Below, one piece after another: positions 18,534 to 34,628 of a stretch of 53,142 nt of DNA. A model generated the notes under the pieces. That model was not told the origin of the DNA. It was given only the letters and a program-made list of their open reading frames with translations, and ran no database searches. The stretch's first letter is position 1. Each line of letters starts with the position of its first letter. Made by a program: the position numbers and the translations under genes. The stretch is from Deltaproteobacteria bacterium (lineage in GTDB: Bacteria > Myxococcota > Myxococcia > Myxococcales > 40CM-4-68-19), in NCBI GenBank assembly GCA_005879535.1, contig VBKI01000091.1, positions 17,882 to 71,023 of the forward strand, read 5' to 3'.

Positions 18534-22742
<4,209 letters not shown>

Positions 22743-22766
22743 AGCGCATCGGATTGGAACACGCGG

Positions 22767-22803
22767 CGGCGGCGGGCCTTCGGGCTCGCCGCCGTTGTCG
22801 TTT
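22767..22803. terminator. Rho-independent terminator after rpoC with UUCG tetraloop
   Basis: The sequence folds into a 12-bp stem (22767-22778 with 22783-22794, one G-T pair) closed by a C(TTCG)G tetraloop, the most stable RNA tetraloop. It is followed by TTGTCGTTT. It lies between rpoC and a convergent small gene, so it can stop transcripts from both sides, although the T-run is interrupted. Confidence 0.75.
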
Positions 22804-22811
22804 CCAGCGCG

Positions 22812-23018
22812 CTATCGCGACAGCGTCTGCTTGATCCACTCCCGGCTGCGGGAGGCCCTCTCGGTCTCGGTCGGCAGGCGCGAGTAGATGGCGTTCAGAA
22901 GGTGGTTCCGGGCGCGGCGCGCCTTGACGGCTGCCCGCAGCGCGCGGTCGCTGGAAACCGCGTGCTGGTAGAGCTCGGTCAGGAGGAGGCCGTAGGGTTC
23001 GAAGGCGCTGGGGATCAT
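22812..23018 (-). CDS. Small hypothetical protein, 68 aa
   Basis: A 68-residue basic protein beginning [20 protein letters not shown], with a helical, Arg/Ala-rich middle ([20 protein letters not shown]). GGGAGGA lies six bases upstream of the ATG, a good ribosome-binding site, which supports real translation. There is no signal peptide or recognised motif. It is convergent with rpoC across a shared terminator. A 63-codon open frame (23015-23206) overlaps its start by ATGA but looks unlike a natural protein. Function unknown. Confidence 0.5.
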
Positions 23019-23375
23019 GGTGCGTCCTCCCGGTGGGGGGCTGGGTTTACCTCAGGTGCAACGGACGTGCCCTGCGGCGGAGGGTCGCGGGCCGCTCTAC
23101 GCGAGGCCGATAGTGGGGGACGAAGATGTCGGCGACGTGGGCGCGCGGCAACAAAATCGTGCCCCTTCAGTCCGGCGACTACGCGCTCCGTCAATTGGCG
23201 AGTCATCGCGCTGACGCGGAACGTTCCGCCGGACCATGCCGCTGCTCAGGGCGGAAGTGGAATGTGCTGCAGTGGGCGCTCGGAGGTGGCGAACCCACTG
23301 ATGTCGCTGAAGCTTTCTGGGTCGCGGTGATGGGCCGCGGTGTCTTCCCCACGGTAACTCTTACGGGAGGGAGAC
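23019..23375. other. 357-base gap without a convincing gene
   Basis: This divergent stretch separates the 68-aa minus-strand gene from the 52-aa lipoprotein gene. Short open frames occur on both strands (for example 23015-23206 minus), but their composition is Arg/Pro-rich as expected from random high-GC sequence. A GGGAGGGA ribosome-binding site for the lipoprotein is at its end. It probably holds promoters for both flanking genes; I see no clear consensus -35/-10 pair, RNA gene or repeat. Confidence 0.5.
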
Positions 23376-23534
23376 ATGAACGTCGCCATTGCAGTCATTC
23401 TCGCCATGTTTGTCGCGGGATGCGGAGGGCAGCGAGATCCGGTTCGAGCTGCACAAGCCGAGATCGAGAACAACATCCAGAGCTCGTTCAGGGCGTTCAA
23501 GGACGACGACCACGACGGCCAGGAGGACACGTAG
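23376..23534 (+). CDS. Small lipoprotein, 52 aa
   Basis: A 52-codon frame starting MNVAIAVILAMFVAGCGGQR. The hydrophobic leader ends in a lipobox (VAGC), so Cys16 is the predicted lipidation site and the mature peptide is only 37 residues. The rest is an Ala/Glu/Asn-rich helical segment (AAQAEIENNIQSSFRAFK) and an acidic tail DDDHDGQEDT. GGGAGGGA lies upstream with good spacing. Small Asp/Gly tails like this resemble calcium-binding type-3 repeats but are too short to call. It converges on the OmpA-family gene with 8 bases between stops. Function unknown. Confidence 0.7.
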   Translation: MNVAIAVILAMFVAGCGGQRDPVRAAQAEIENNIQSSFRAFKDDDHDGQEDT

Positions 23535-23542
23535 TCGCCGCG

Positions 23543-25117
23543 CTACGGACCCACGTCCGTCACTTCGCCCGCCACCCTGCGCCGGATCACCCGGAACTCG
23601 ACGCGCCGGTTCTTTTCCCGGCCCTGGCGCGTCGAGTTCGTGGCGATGGGCTGGTTCGGTCCGAAGCCGTGCGCGACCATGCGGTTGGCGGCGACGCCGC
23701 GACGGATCAGCGCGCCGACTACCGCCTCGGCGCGCGCCTGCGAGAGCGCCAGGTTCGTGGCGATTCGGCCGGTGCTGTCGGTGTGTCCCTGCACGTCGAT
23801 GCGCACCACCTCCGGATGGTTCTTGAGCACCCGCGCAATCTGGTTCAGCAGGCGCGTCGAGCGCGGATGGATCAGCGTCTTGGCCGGCGCGAAGTAGACC
23901 TTGTCGAGGATGTCGATCCGGTTCTCGCGGATGGAGACGATCTGCTTTTCCGCGCGCGGGCACCCGGCGTTGTCGGCAGGGCCCTTGACGAAGGGGCAAT
24001 TGTCGATGGCGTCGGGAACGCCATCGCCATCGGAATCACGCGACTCCTCTTCGCCATACGTCGTCGCGCGCGAGGCCGCCTGACCCTCCGAAGCGGGAAG
24101 AAGATCGGCCGCCTCGGAACGGATCAGCGCCTCCCGCGCCGCCGATTCCGACGGCCCGAGGAGCTTGGGAATTCGCTTCTCCTGCTCCTCCTTCTCGCGC
24201 TCGGCGCGCTCCTTCGCGATCTGCGCCACCAGCTCCTTGAGGCCTGGTTCGGGGCCGGTGTCGCGCTTGGGCGGCGTGCAGAGAGAAGGCGCGTAACGGA
24301 GCGCGACTACGCCGCGCAGCGACGGCGCGCCGAGCCCGTCGTCGAGGCGCGTTCCTCCGGCAAGGTCGGCCGCAATGACCGAGGTCGCGCACAATGTCGC
24401 ACCGATGCGCCACTCGATGGGAAACGACTGCTGCGAGAGATCGCGCAGGGAAGACTGCAGCTCGAGCTCTGCGTAGGCGCGGGACCGCGTCGACAGCCAC
24501 CAGGCGGCGCCCCCGCGCAGCCCGATCTCGTTGCCGAGCTTCGCCGTTCCGACGTCGTGCGGCGGCCGGAAGCGCAGGAACGCGTTTCCGATCAGCTCCA
24601 GTTGCCCGCGGCGCCGCGCTACCGCGACCAGCCCTTCCACCACCAGCCGCTGGTCGTCCGTGAGCGACTGGTGCGCGCCGCTCGCCACCTCGACCGAGAG
24701 CTGCCCCGCAAGGTCGATGGGCCCGCGGAGAAAGCCGTGCCGCACGCCTGCCCGGATGTCGCCGACGGAGAACCCGAACGACGGCGTAGGCGCGCCCGCG
24801 ACTTGCGCGACGCTCCCCGACTGCCACTGCCCCAGCGTGATGGGAAGCTGCGCGAAGATGGATGCGTACCCGTTCAGCGGTGCCGCGAGCTGCACCCAGC
24901 CACCGCTGCGCGATTCGTGGCTCACTCCATCCAGGCCGATACGGATCGGCTTGTACCCGAAGTCGAGACCGACCTGGAGCTGGAGTGGCTCGGAGGAATC
25001 CGTCGGCGGCCGCGCTCCTTCCACGCCGAGAAGCCCGTCGCTTCCGCTCGCCGGCCGCAAGAGAGAAAGGTTCACCTCGGGGAGAGCGGCGACGAGCAGG
25101 GCGAGGAGGTGACCCAA
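23543..25117 (-). CDS. OmpA-family outer-membrane protein with type-3 calcium-binding repeat
   Basis: A 524-residue envelope protein. A short hydrophobic leader (LLALLVAALPEV) is followed by a beta-barrel-like N-terminal domain (about residues 40-280) as in alginate-export or transporter-type barrels, then a charged coiled segment (AKERAEREKEEQEKR), a thrombospondin type-3 motif DSDGDGVPDAIDNCPFVKG, and a C-terminal OmpA peptidoglycan-binding domain (VDVQGHTDS... region with NLALSQARAEAVV and GREKNRRVEFRVI). It probably anchors the outer membrane to peptidoglycan. The start is a TTG directly abutting the permease stop codon, so the pair is likely cotranscribed; another start is possible. Confidence 0.85.
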   Translation of the reverse strand: MGHLLALLVAALPEVNLSLLRPASGSDGLLGVEGARPPTDSSEPLQLQVGLDFGYKPIRIGLDGVSHESRSGGWVQLAAPLNGYASIFAQLPITLGQWQSGSVAQVAGAPTPSFGFSVGDIRAGVRHGFLRGPIDLAGQLSVEVASGAHQSLTDDQRLVVEGLVAVARRRGQLELIGNAFLRFRPPHDVGTAKLGNEIGLRGGAAWWLSTRSRAYAELELQSSLRDLSQQSFPIEWRIGATLCATSVIAADLAGGTRLDDGLGAPSLRGVVALRYAPSLCTPPKRDTGPEPGLKELVAQIAKERAEREKEEQEKRIPKLLGPSESAAREALIRSEAADLLPASEGQAASRATTYGEEESRDSDGDGVPDAIDNCPFVKGPADNAGCPRAEKQIVSIRENRIDILDKVYFAPAKTLIHPRSTRLLNQIARVLKNHPEVVRIDVQGHTDSTGRIATNLALSQARAEAVVGALIRRGVAANRMVAHGFGPNQPIATNSTRQGREKNRRVEFRVIRRRVAGEVTDVGP

Positions 25118-26416
25118 CTAGCCGGCCTCCGCGACGGTGCGCCGTCCGAATGCGCGCCAGGCGCCGTGGAGGGCGAGACCGACGGCGAGCGTGCCGACGG
25201 AGAAGATCGCGTCGTCGCGCTTGATGCCGTTGAGGAAGAGGATGCAGCCGAGCGTCGCCAGCAACGGAATGGTGGGTCCGAGCGGCAGGCGGAACGCGCT
25301 CGCGCCCTTCGTCCGCCGCAGGATGGGGACGGCGAGGCAGGTGGGCACGTACTGCGCGAAGACGGCGGCGTTGTTCAGGTCCGAGAGGCGGTCGAAGTCG
25401 GCGAAGACCGCCAGCCCCGCGCAGACGAGCGCCGTGACCGCGATGGCGATCGACGGCGTGCCGAAGCGCGGATTCGTACGGGCGAACACGGCAGGGAGCT
25501 CACCGTTCTCCCCCAGCGCCGAGAGGTAGCGTGGAGTCACCAGCGCGACCGCAGTCAGATAGCCGAACGAGGAGATCACCGATCCCAGCGCGACGAACCG
25601 GCCCATCCAGGGACCCGCGAACGCCGCCGCCGCTTCCGCCAGCGGCTTGTCCGCCGTGCCGGGATCGGGGTGCGTTCCCATGAAGACGACCTGCACGACG
25701 ACGTACAGCAGGACCGACCCGAGCAGCGCGAAGAAGAGCGCGAGGGGAACGTTGCGTCGCGGATTGTCGGTCTCGCCGGCGGTTACCGGGACGTACTCGA
25801 AGCCGGTGCAGGCAAAGAGCGCGGCAAAACCGCCGAGCTTGAGCGCCTCGAGCTTCGTCTCTCCCGCCGGCGGCGGCAGCGCGAGGCGGTGCCAGTCGAC
25901 GAAGAGCAGCCCGATGCCGACGAAGAGGAGGATCGGAATCAGCTTCGCGCCGCTGAAGAAATCGCTGGTCAGAGCGCCAGGGCGAATGCCGCGGTAGTTG
26001 AGCGCGGCCAGGCCCGCGATGACCGCGATCGCCAGCGCGATCTGGGGCGCCGCGCCGTTCAGCGACGGGACGAAAAAGGAAACGTTTCGCCCGATTCCCC
26101 GCGCGACCGCTCCGTAGGCGAACAGGTTCGCCATCAGCGCCATCCATCCCACGGCGACGCCGACCCACCGCCCGAACGCATCGCGCGCGTACAGGTAGGG
26201 GCCGCCGTTTCGCTCGGCGCGGCCGGCGGTCTCGCAGAAACAGAGCCCCACGAGGAGGCAGACTCCGCCGATGGCGAGCCAAGCGGCCCAGGAGAAGCCG
26301 CCCGCGTTGCGGAAGACTTTCGCGGGAAGAAGGAAGATGCCAGTGCCGATGATGCCGTTGATGCCGAGCCCGACGCAGTCCAGCAGCGTCATCCGGTTTC
26401 TGGCGCGCACTTGCAT
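25118..26416 (-). CDS. APC-superfamily amino acid permease
   Basis: A 432-residue inner-membrane transporter with about 12 hydrophobic segments. The first helix carries the substrate-binding signature [16 protein letters not shown] (G-x-G-x-G type loop of the amino acid-polyamine-organocation family), and [24 protein letters not shown] in the sixth helix region is also characteristic. The substrate cannot be read from sequence; amino acids or amines are likely. It precedes the OmpA-family gene on the minus strand with no spacer and is divergent from the rpsL promoter region. Confidence 0.9.
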
Positions 26417-26473
26417 CTAACAATGCCCGAGGGCGGGCGGGCAGCCAAGCGCGTCAGCGAGCGCCACCTTCGC

Positions 26474-26501
26474 TTGACAGCGAGAGCTTCCCCAGTATGA
26501 T
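26474..26501 (+). promoter_or_regulatory. Sigma-70-type promoter of the rpsL (str) operon
   Basis: TTGACA at 26474-26479 and TATGAT at 26496-26501 are 16 bases apart: a perfect -35 and a 5-of-6 -10. It is in the intergenic region before rpsL and would give a leader of about 73 bases. The start of the divergent permease gene is 57 bases away on the other side. Confidence 0.8.
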
Positions 26502-26537
26502 GCGCGCCTTTTCGGGGACAACTCCCTGTTTTTCCTG

Positions 26538-26563
26538 CCGCCGCCGGCATCTCGAGGCGGCGG
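26538..26563 (+). promoter_or_regulatory. Hairpin in the rpsL leader
   Basis: CCGCCGCC at 26538-26545 pairs perfectly with GGCGGCGG at 26556-26563 around a 10-base loop, preceded by a TTTTT run. It lies between the promoter and the rpsL start and could be a ribosomal-protein (S7 or S12) control element; in E. coli S7 represses the str operon at a different site, so the role is inference. Confidence 0.4.
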
Positions 26564-26580
26564 TTGCGTTGAAAGGCACG

Positions 26581-26952
26581 ATGCCGACGATCAGCCAGCT
26601 CATTCGCAAGGGCCGCGAGAAGGTCATCTACAAGGGCAAGGCGCCCGCGATGACCCGCTGCCCGCAGAAGCGGGGGGTCTGCACCCGCGTCTACACCACC
26701 ACCCCGAAGAAGCCGAACTCGGCGCTGCGCAAGGTGGCGCGCGTGCGGCTCACCAACGGGATGGAGGTGACGAGCTACATCCCCGGCGTCGGCCACAACC
26801 TGCAGGAGCACTCGGTGGTGATGATCCGCGGCGGCCGCGTCAAGGACCTGCCGGGCGTGCGCTACCACATCATCCGCGGAACGCTGGACTCGGTCGGCGT
26901 GGCTGGCCGCAAGCAGGGCCGCAGCAAGTACGGCGCGAAGCGGCCGTCTTAA
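26581..26952 (+). CDS. rpsL: 30S ribosomal protein S12
   Basis: S12 sits at the decoding centre and controls accuracy. The 123-residue product begins [20 protein letters not shown] at ATG 26581; the in-frame ATGs upstream lie in the leader. The streptomycin-region sequences [17 protein letters not shown] and [17 protein letters not shown] keep the wild-type lysines (about 43 and 88), predicting sensitivity. GAAAGGCACG precedes the start. It is followed 14 bases later by rpsG. Confidence 0.98.
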
Positions 26953-26966
26953 GGAGAACGTCAGAA

Positions 26967-27437
26967 ATGCCTCGTCGTCGTGAAGTTGCCAAGCGCAGGA
27001 TCCTTCCCGATCCGAAGTTCCAGGACCGGCTGCTCGCCAAATTCATCAACGACATGATGCGCAGGGGCGAGAAGGCGGTCGCCGAGCGCGTCGCCTACCG
27101 GGCCCTCGATCTGGTGCAGCAGCGCACCAACGACGACCCGCTGAAGACGTTCAAGAAGGCGCTCGACAACGTCAAGCCGGTGCTCGAGGTGAAGAGCCGC
27201 CGCGTCGGCGGCGCCACCTACCAGGTGCCGGTGGAAGTGCGCCAGGAGCGCCGGGTCGCCCTCGCCATGCGCTGGCTGATCGAGTACGCCAAGGAGCGCG
27301 GCGAGAAGACCATGGACCAGAAGCTCGCTGCTGAGCTGATGGACGCCGCGAACAACCGCGGCAACGCGGTGAAGAAGCGCGAGGACACGCACAAGATGGC
27401 GGAGGCAAACAAGGCCTTCGCGCACTACCGCTGGTAG
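26967..27437 (+). CDS. rpsG: 30S ribosomal protein S7
   Basis: S7 nucleates assembly of the 30S head and contacts the E site tRNA. At 156 residues it matches the family: [20 protein letters not shown] at the N-terminus, [20 protein letters not shown], and [28 protein letters not shown] precedes the ATG. In most relatives fusA follows directly; here a minus-strand frameshifted gene of about 1.5 kb intervenes, with only 6 bases between the convergent stops. Confidence 0.98.
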
Positions 27438-27443
27438 ACGGGG

Positions 27444-28912
27444 CTAGAGCGGTGTGAGCAGGACGGCGCGCCACTCGCCGTCGAACACTGACGTCGCGGC
27501 GATGCGCCCGGATTCGTCGACGCATGCTGCGGAGTCGATGAAGTACGGGCCCGGCACGACGAGATCGTTCAGATCGAACAGACGATCTTCGCCCCAGACG
27601 ATGCCGCGGCGGACCACGTCGTTTTCGTCGAAGGAGATTCCCGCAGCGACGCCGGCCGAGTTGATGCAGCCGAGATAGCTGTGCACGAGGCCTGGAAGTG
27701 ATCCGACGTCGCGCAGGGTCGTCCCCTCCGTCCAGATGAAGGCGTGGTACGTCGACCGTTCTGGGCGCGTGGCGTAGCCGACGATGACGCCGACGTTGTT
27801 GATGGCGACGGCGCGGCCATAGCTTCCTCCCCAGGAGCCGAGATCGTCGATCACTCCGGGCTTCCGGAATCGGACGGGATGGAATGCGTTGGCGACGCAG
27901 GATTCGCCCACGATGATCCCCTTCGAGTTGATTCCGTACGCCTCCGAGTAGTCGCAGTGGATGGGATCGATCGACCCGAGGTCGGTGGCGAGGCCGTCAG
28001 CCCACGCCGCCGCGTGGATGCTGTGGTCGGCGAGCTGGGCCCACCCCGCGATCATGCCTTCGGCGTTGATGGCCGCTGCCCAGCTGTTCTCGCCGCCAAG
28101 CGTCCCAAGGTCGGCCGCGACGCCGCGTTCCCACCGGAAGGCGCGAAAATCGGGAGTGCCGTGGACGCCTACAATCGTCCCGGAATCATTGATCCCGTGC
28201 ACGTCCGTCGGCCAAGCCATGCCGACGTCGTGAAGCACGCCGTCCCAGAAAAAGCTCGCGCCGCTGGTATATGCACCGCCAACCAGTCCCGAGCGTGGAC
28301 TCATGATCGAGGCGAAGGATTGTGGGTCGGCAAGCGGTGTGACTGCATAACGGCGTAGCTCGAATCGGCCGACGGCCGCCGTGTGGGCGCGAACGACCAC
28401 CTGGCAATCCCTCCCCGCGCACGATCCGCTCCACGCACTAGCGTCCCGGCCGGGAACGTCGCGCTACATCGTCCGGGGCAGTCGATGCCCGGCGGCTCGG
28501 ACGTGATCCTGCCACCTCCGCTTCCCACCATTCCAACCGAAAGCCGCGCGCGGCCTCGGTCGAAATGCGCGGACACGGACGCATCCGTCGACAGCGTCAG
28601 GTCGCAGACCGCGCCGGCGCAAGAGCCCGTGAACGCGTCGAAGACCCAGTCGTTGTCCGCAATGGCGACCAGTCGCACATTCGTCGCTGCGCGGAAGTCC
28701 GCAGCGCACGCACCGGGGCAGTCGATTCCGACGGGGTCGCTCCGGATCGCTCCGGATCCCTCGACGGTAACGGCCAGGCGGCGCGCGGCTACGCTCGGCG
28801 CAACGGGGGGGGCGCCGACGGACGGAGGAGGATCATCAGCGACTGGATGAACGCCCGAGCTGCTGCTGCAGGCCACCGCCGCGAGTACGAGAACGGCGGC
28901 GATAGCGCGCAT
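27444..28912 (-). pseudogene. Frameshifted lipoprotein with InlB-like repeats and HAF repeats
   Basis: The 5' part (start ATG 28912, GGGGGAG upstream) reads [20 protein letters not shown], a lipoprotein signal with lipobox VAC, then a repeat module ([16 protein letters not shown] ... [20 protein letters not shown]) and the first half of a second one ([20 protein letters not shown]). The reading frame then changes: the second repeat continues in another frame (AWSGSCAGRDCQVVVRAHTA) into a C-terminal region of HAF repeats (DLGTLGGENSWAAAINAEG and similar, roughly six copies). The two frames meet between 28430 and 28463. The second repeat is about 13 residues short, which suggests a real deletion rather than a miscalled base. 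Alternatively two separate genes exist, but the GTG at 28400 would start within the repeat. Confidence 0.7.
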
Positions 28913-29130
28913 GCGGCTCCCCCAATGACGAAAATGCGCACGCCAGGCCGAAGAGACGAGGAGAGTGCGCTCGCCCGCCCGGCAGCCGCGCACGCGGCCC
29001 TGCGACACAGAGGACGCCGCAGCGCGCCATCGAAGGGTGCCCCGTCCCCCGAGGAAGTCCGTTCTTTCTCAAGCAATTCGTTCATCCGGTCCCCAGGCGC
29101 GCAAGCGCCCGCACTGACGAGGTATTCGCC

Positions 29131-32495: not shown

Positions 32496-32508
32496 GGAAT
32501 TCGAAGTG

Positions 32509-32549
32509 GCCGGACCGTCCGGCGGAAACCGGACGGCGCGGCTGTTTTT
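32509..32549 (+). terminator. Hairpin plus T-run between tuf and rpsJ
   Basis: CCGTCCGG (32515-32522) pairs perfectly with CCGGACGG (32529-32536) around a 6-base CGGAAA loop; an outer GCCG (32509-32512) can pair with CGGC (32539-32542), and TTTTT follows at 32545-32549. This is a good intrinsic terminator. It lies 22 bases before the rpsJ start, so it ends the tuf transcript or acts as an attenuator for the S10 operon; no separate promoter for rpsJ is visible after it. Confidence 0.7.
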
Positions 32550-32571
32550 CGGTCTTTGAGAAGAGGTATCG

Positions 32572-32880
32572 ATGGCGACCCAGAAGATCCGGATCCGGCT
32601 GAAGGCGTATGACTACAAGCTGCTCGATCAGTCGGCCGGCGAGATCGTCGAGACGGCGAAGCGCACGGGCGCGAAGGTGGTGGGACCGATCCCGCTGCCC
32701 ACGCGGATCAACAAGTTCACCGTGCTGCGCTCGCCCCACGTGGACAAGAAGTCCCGTGAGCAGTTCGAGATCCGCACGCACAAGCGGCTCCTCGACATTC
32801 TCGAGCCCACCCAGCAGACGCTCGACGCCCTGATGAAGCTCGACCTGAGCGCAGGCGTCGACGTCGAGATCAAGAGCTAA
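32572..32880 (+). CDS. rpsJ: 30S ribosomal protein S10
   Basis: S10 is in the 30S head and, as NusE, links to NusB and NusG in antitermination. The 102-residue product has [40 protein letters not shown] and [25 protein letters not shown] precedes the ATG. It opens the S10 operon, but the next gene is rplD three bases after its stop: rplC (L3), which normally lies between them, is missing. Confidence 0.98.
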
Positions 32881-32883
32881 GCC

Positions 32884-33504
32884 ATGGCCACCCTGGACGT
32901 CATCAACCTCGAGAAGCAGAAGGTCGGCACCATCGACCTCCCCGACGAGATCGTGAACGCGCCCGTTGCCGAGCACCTCTTCTACGAGGTGGTCAAGGCG
33001 CAGCTCGCCTCGCGGCGGGCGGGCACGGTGGGGGTGAAGAACCGGTCGCTGGTCTCCGGCGGCGGAAAGAAGCCATACAAGCAGAAGGGGACCGGGCGGG
33101 CGCGTCAGGGCTCCATCCGCGCCAGCCAGTGGGTCGGCGGCGGCAAGGCCATGGCACCGAAGATGCGCGACCACGAGTACCACGTGCCGAAGAGGGTGCG
33201 GAAAGCGGCCCTGCGGGCGGCGATCAGCAAGCGCAACCAGGACAAGGCGCTGGTGGTGGTCGACGCCTGGACTCCGGCGAAGCCCTCCACGAAGGAAGCG
33301 GTGAATGCCTTCGCGAAGCTCGGGATCGAGAGCGCGCTGGTGCTCGGCCTGAAGGACAACCAGAACCTCTTCAAGTCCGTCCGCAACGCGAAGAAGTACA
33401 TGTTCCTGCCCGTCGAGGGCGCCAACGTCTACGACATCCTGCGCCACCAGACCCTGCTGCTGACCAAGGACGCGGCCCTGGCGCTGACGGGGGTGCTCGC
33501 ATGA
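32884..33504 (+). CDS. rplD: 50S ribosomal protein L4
   Basis: L4 lines the exit tunnel and in E. coli regulates the S10 operon. The 206-residue product contains the extended loop [21 protein letters not shown] that reaches the tunnel, then [20 protein letters not shown]. It starts three bases after rpsJ, so it may rely on coupling or the GAGCTAAGCC region. Its stop overlaps the rplW start (ATGA). The usual upstream neighbour rplC is absent. Confidence 0.98.
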
Positions 33505-33788
33505 ACCGCTTCGAGATCATCAAGCGCCCGCTCGACACCGAGAAGCTCGACCGCATGCGCGACCGCGAGAACAAGTTCGCCTTCGAGATCGACCTCAAGG
33601 CGAACAAGACCGAGGTCAAACAGGCCATCGAGCAGCTCTTCAAGGTGAAGGTGCTCGACATCAAGACGCACATCGTGCGGGGCAAGTTCCGCCGCATCGG
33701 CCGCTCCGAAGGCCGTCGGCCCAACTGGAAGAAGGCGATCGTGACGCTCAAGGAAGGCGACGCGATCCAGCTCTTCGAGGGGAAGTAA
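33501..33788 (+). CDS. rplW: 50S ribosomal protein L23
   Basis: L23 forms the docking site for trigger factor and SRP at the tunnel exit. The 95-residue product begins [20 protein letters not shown] and has the family core [20 protein letters not shown] and [20 protein letters not shown]. The ATG overlaps the rplD stop by 4 bases. It is a normal length and is followed by rplB after three bases. Confidence 0.97.
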
Positions 33789-33791
33789 GCG

Positions 33792-34628
33792 ATGGTGCTC
33801 AAATCCTACAAGCCGACCAGCCCCGGGCGCCGCCTGACCACGTCGCCGGACTTCGCGGAGATCACCAAGGACTACCCCGAGCGCTCGCTGACGGCGCCGC
33901 TCAAGTCCACCGGGGGCCGGAACGTGTACGGCCGCATGACCACGCGGCACCGCGGCGGCGGACACAAGCAGCGGCTGCGGATCATCGACTGGCGCCGCGA
34001 CAAGGACGGAGTGCCGGCCAAGGTGGCGGCCATCGAGTACGACCCGAACCGCTCCGCGCGCATCGCGCTGCTCCACTACACCGACGGGGAGAAGCGCTAC
34101 ATCCTCTGGCCTGTCGGGGTGAACGTCGGCGACGTGCTGCAGTCGGGCGAGACGGTCGACATCCGGCCGGGAAACGCCTTGCCGCTGCACGCCATCCCGC
34201 TCGGCACCGTCATCCACAACATCGAGCTGAAGAAGGGCCACGGCGCGCAGATGATCCGCTCCGCCGGATCCTTCGGGCAGCTGATGGCGAAGGAAGGCAA
34301 GTACGCGCAGATCCGCCTGCCCTCGACCGAGGTCCGCATGGTCCTGCTCGAGTGCAAGGCCACGGTGGGGCAGCTCGGCAACACCGAGCACGAGATCGTG
34401 CGCATCGGCAAGGCCGGCCGGAACCGCTGGAAGGGCTGGCGGCCGACGGTGCGCGGCCTGGCGATGAATCCGGTCGATCACCCGCACGGCGGCGGCGAGG
34501 GCAAGAGCGGCCAGGGCAACCCGCACCCGGTCTCGCCCTGGGGCCAGCAGGCCAAGGGTCTCAAGACGCGCGTAAACAAGCGCACCAGCAAGTTCATCAT
34601 CAAGCGGCGCGACAAGGGAGTTCGCTGA
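33792..34628 (+). CDS. rplB: 50S ribosomal protein L2
   Basis: L2 is needed for subunit joining and peptidyl-transferase assembly. The 278-residue product has the N-terminal [20 protein letters not shown], the [20 protein letters not shown] region and the conserved C-terminal [15 protein letters not shown] with the histidine region near the active centre. Its stop shares a base with the rpsS start (TGATG). Length is as expected. Confidence 0.98.

Follow-up and report, generated by a model that had tools for sequence, protein, structure and literature searches.

The S10 operon, in which rpsJ is followed by rplC, rplD, rplW, rplB and further genes, has this arrangement in Escherichia coli and most bacteria. 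Break-up of ribosomal operons occurs in bacterial lineages. The review PMC10931766 describes repression of the E. coli S10 operon by L4 acting at its leader, and counts L3, the product of rplC, among the proteins that 50S assembly requires at its first step. The locus considered here lies in a 53,142-nt stretch of a myxococcal draft genome (contig C91; hereafter the window). When compared with the operon of E. coli and most bacteria, its rpsJ, rplD, rplW, rplB and the genes that come next retain the usual order and strand, whereas rplC does not stand between rpsJ and rplD but exists elsewhere as a separate gene. The features around the junction are as follows.

32496..32571, plus strand: spacer between tuf and rpsJ, 5' of the S10 operon, containing a GC-rich hairpin, no Rfam match
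32572..32880, plus strand: rpsJ (ribosomal protein S10), 102 aa, 157.7 bits with the bacterial S10 model
32881..32883, plus strand: three-base junction 'gcc', the place of rplC in other phyla
32884..33504, plus strand: rplD (ribosomal protein L4), 206 aa, 220.5 bits with the bacterial L4 model
33501..33788, plus strand: rplW (L23), its start overlapping the rplD stop by 4 bases, assigned by position and sequence
33792..34628, plus strand: rplB (L2), the next gene of the S10 operon, assigned by position and sequence

The four genes are contiguous on one strand, as in the canonical operon, and only the 3-nt junction stands where rplC would be expected: the rpsJ stop codon TAA (32878-32880) is followed by 'gcc' (32881-32883) and then by the rplD start codon ATG at 32884. 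These coordinates confirm the original prediction that rplC is absent between rpsJ and rplD, with a gap of three bases. Its further statement that the window holds no L3-like frame likewise agrees with our results: a search of the whole genome with the Pfam and NCBIfam L3 models detected no L3 gene in the window, and the sole match in the genome lies on another contig, C70. Two stretches upstream of the operon also drew attention. Between rpsG (26967-27437) and fusA (29131), two overlapping frames on the opposite strand (27444-28400 and 28301-29008) split the str operon, and the frames in 27444-29008 match no Pfam family at the cut-off. Further upstream, about 3.7 kb (22743-26496) separate a 1402-aa frame (18534-22742), which by its size and place is probably rpoC, from rpsL (S12, 26497-26952); the frames at 22902-23330 and 23126-26500 in this interval have no Pfam match and may not be the real genes.

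The whole-genome profile search for L3, which had been proposed together with the prediction, recovered one intact rplC, at C70:66455-67081 on the minus strand, matched once each by the Pfam and NCBIfam models. It had been suggested that the gene must have moved or been lost; the former proved correct, and a loss of L3 is rejected by the intact gene on C70. This gene has an uninterrupted reading frame of 216 aa, scores 244 bits with TIGR03625 (cut-off 142.9) over positions 1-202 of the 202 in the model, and its product aligns over its whole length with L3 chains of solved structure. Like bacterial L3 in general (TIGR03625; PF00297), it is thus full-length, single-copy and above the family cut-off, and as far as tested it differs only by its position in the genome. 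Given its sequence and its status as the only L3 gene found, the C70 protein presumably still does the job of L3, including incorporation into the 50S subunit. It is flanked on one side by a divergent lytic transglycosylase gene, whose longest start is about 0.2 kb away, and on the other by a convergent cupin gene, and because of this placement it is probably transcribed alone.

The distribution of the arrangement was assessed in 144 Myxococcota genomes, drawn evenly across the phylum and each at least 90% complete. Profile matches to L3 were found in 139 of these and to L4 and S10 in 141 each; the five genomes with no L3 match are drafts, and assembly gaps are the likely reason. Among the 60 nearest genomes the corresponding counts are 55, 58 and 58. 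In every one of the 141 phylum genomes having both S10 and L4, their profile matches lie 48-190 nt apart (56-190 nt in the 105 genomes within the order, 48-179 nt in the 36 outside it). Since L3 takes about 630 nt to encode, none of these 141 genomes has rplC between S10 and L4. The relocation of rplC is hence an old trait common to Myxococcota. The original prediction had implied that the absence is rare within the clade, and had named a relocation both old and common among relatives as the result that would speak against it; gene order in relatives shows such a relocation across Myxococcota, with all 141 genomes lacking rplC at this place.

Outside the clade, a sample of named genomes was examined by means of an S10 query, with L3 and L4 then checked by tblastn at the best 80 S10 loci listed. 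Sixty-seven of these have the order S10-L3-L4 and nine have S10 directly before L4; two more have L3 next but the contig ends before L4, and the remaining two are cut off at once. Among the nine direct S10-L4 loci of the best 80 listed are those of Archangium lansinium, a Sorangium MAG, two Myxococcales MAGs and the MAG DP_13; the last appears to be identical with G006, a genome of the window's genus, since contig number, coordinates and score of rplC agree. Eight of the nine genomes carry L3 at another place. The loci with the canonical rpsJ-rplC-rplD order among the best 80 listed include those of Geomonas, Geobacter, Desulfobacca, Bdellovibrionales, Acidobacteriota, Nitrospirota, Nitrospinota and Alphaproteobacteria; in the named sample the other phyla keeping it are Thermodesulfobacteriota, Bdellovibrionota, Acidobacteriota, Nitrospirota, Nitrospinota and Alphaproteobacteria; six canonical loci of the L3 tree that are titled 'Deltaproteobacteria bacterium' have their phylum from that tree only, where they fall among Thermodesulfobacteriota and Bdellovibrionota. 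This outgroup sample bears out the premise of the prediction, namely that rplC normally sits between rpsJ and rplD.

In several deep lineages of the phylum, one or two genes for outer-membrane barrel proteins, together with large TPR genes, come after rplC on its strand. Homology between two such lineages is clear for the first TPR protein (28% identity over 538 columns, E 6e-82) and only weak for the barrel proteins (E 3e-06). Within the family of the window's genome, the barrel/TPR neighbourhood is kept in one genome (G008) and is not beside rplC in another (G000). At three loci (L086:7640-15924, L100:2537-11609 and L101:598-10362) rplC is followed by barrel genes and three consecutive TPR genes, an arrangement reminiscent of gltB-gltA-gltC. 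The Myxococcus gliding proteins encoded by these genes have 275, 256 and 673 aa (PMC3169522). An identification of the rplC neighbours with them was considered and is not claimed: the barrel-barrel-TPR order is alike, but the lengths at one such locus (L068; 273, 441 and 512 aa) differ. Other lineages have a small gene of 96-102 aa after rplC that belongs to no Pfam family (L090:8354-8662, L093:10159-10449 and L095:9325-9630).

These observations can be reconciled by a scenario in which rplC would have left its operon on a single occasion, no later than in the common ancestor of the sampled Myxococcota (the stem of the phylum), all descendants would have inherited the operon as rpsJ-rplD-rplW-rplB, and L3 would now be supplied by an intact single-copy gene standing apart, here the 216-aa frame on C70. 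We consider this one-time move, with its inheritance by all sampled lineages and the supply of L3 from a separate gene, to be highly probable. The contrary notion that a misassembly or binning gap removed rplC at 32881, and that the real operon retains it, could draw on the draft state of the genome (118 contigs), but it has practically no chance of being correct. The same gene order recurs in independent assemblies, including single-contig chromosomes, and the genome in question does have rplC, at another place. The relatives also share the rpsJ-rplD junction: most of the genus and family members looked at have 2-3 nt between the two genes, and the sequence is stop-CC-ATG or stop-GCC-ATG at L050, L055, L056 and L058 and in the MAG DP_13 (L102). 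Since their junctions are of this same type, a deletion introduced by the present assembly alone is excluded.

The remaining alternatives concern the history of the gene, for which an L3 tree was computed that is quick and single-gene, with weak deep forks. In the free search the relocated and canonical L3s were nearly separate, with Alphaproteobacteria and two Nitrospinota intruding at positions lacking strong support. The failure of the relocated L3s to form a strongly supported clade, and the presence of Alphaproteobacteria among them, count against a single move, and could suggest loss of the old rplC and acquisition, at the new place, of an rplC from another phylum, so that the present L3 would not descend from the operon copy. 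Such a replacement seems improbable, given that a tree holding all relocated L3s as one clade surpassed the likelihood reached by the free search by 12.45 log units (p-AU 0.742, not rejected). Moreover, rplC lies 43-208 kb from rplD in 16 of 19 single-contig chromosomes, many of them close relatives and hence not independent; this spacing is consistent with a move of moderate range, and such regional proximity to the S10 operon is more readily reconciled with a local move than with an import. The variation of the rplC neighbours between lineages, including the second set with the small gene, also speaks against a single move, and these several neighbourhoods might instead point to independent exits of rplC from the operon in different Myxococcota lineages. 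We regard repeated exits as very improbable: the canonical order is kept in none of the 141 sampled genomes, and one neighbourhood is common to several deep lineages. The junction, the presence of an intact rplC at a distance and the distribution across the phylum are observed; behind them we infer a single event rather than several, a single transposition being the simplest account because one L3 clade is not rejected, deep lineages share neighbours and rplC lies near the S10 operon. The fuller proposition, that the exit of rplC was a single, phylum-defining event of Myxococcota which uncoupled the supply of L3 from the S10 operon phylum-wide and tied the gene to a barrel/TPR cluster in several deep lineages, is favoured by us only slightly over its negation.

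With rplC outside the operon, L3 would be translated from its own mRNA, presumably from a separate promoter, and would lie beyond any feedback acting on the S10 mRNA; any control of the L4 type in these organisms would therefore not reach L3. No ribosomal leader was matched by Rfam at the S10 or the rplC locus, where only tRNAs were found, and a scan detected no consensus promoters or terminators around tuf-rpsJ-rplD. The GC-rich hairpin in the tuf-rpsJ spacer (CCGTCCGG CGGAAA CCGGACGG) has counterparts at the same place in members of the genus and family, with a similar loop and a different stem sequence in which pairing is still predicted, and may be an S10-operon leader or terminator.

As in the break-up of ribosomal operons generally, one ribosomal protein gene has been transposed out and kept separately; here, in contrast, the change appears fixed across a whole phylum sample, in a neighbourhood that is among the most stable. 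A description of the rplC move in Myxococcus or Myxococcota was not found in the literature, of which our coverage is incomplete. For the window itself, the missing rplC is mainly ordinary for the clade. Myxococcota were formerly placed with other Deltaproteobacteria, and a fixed change in a gene order that ranks among the most stable in bacteria is a useful rare genomic marker for the phylum. It also offers a natural case of L3 encoded apart from its operon partners, in which the matching of the amount of L3 to that of the S10-operon products is testable.
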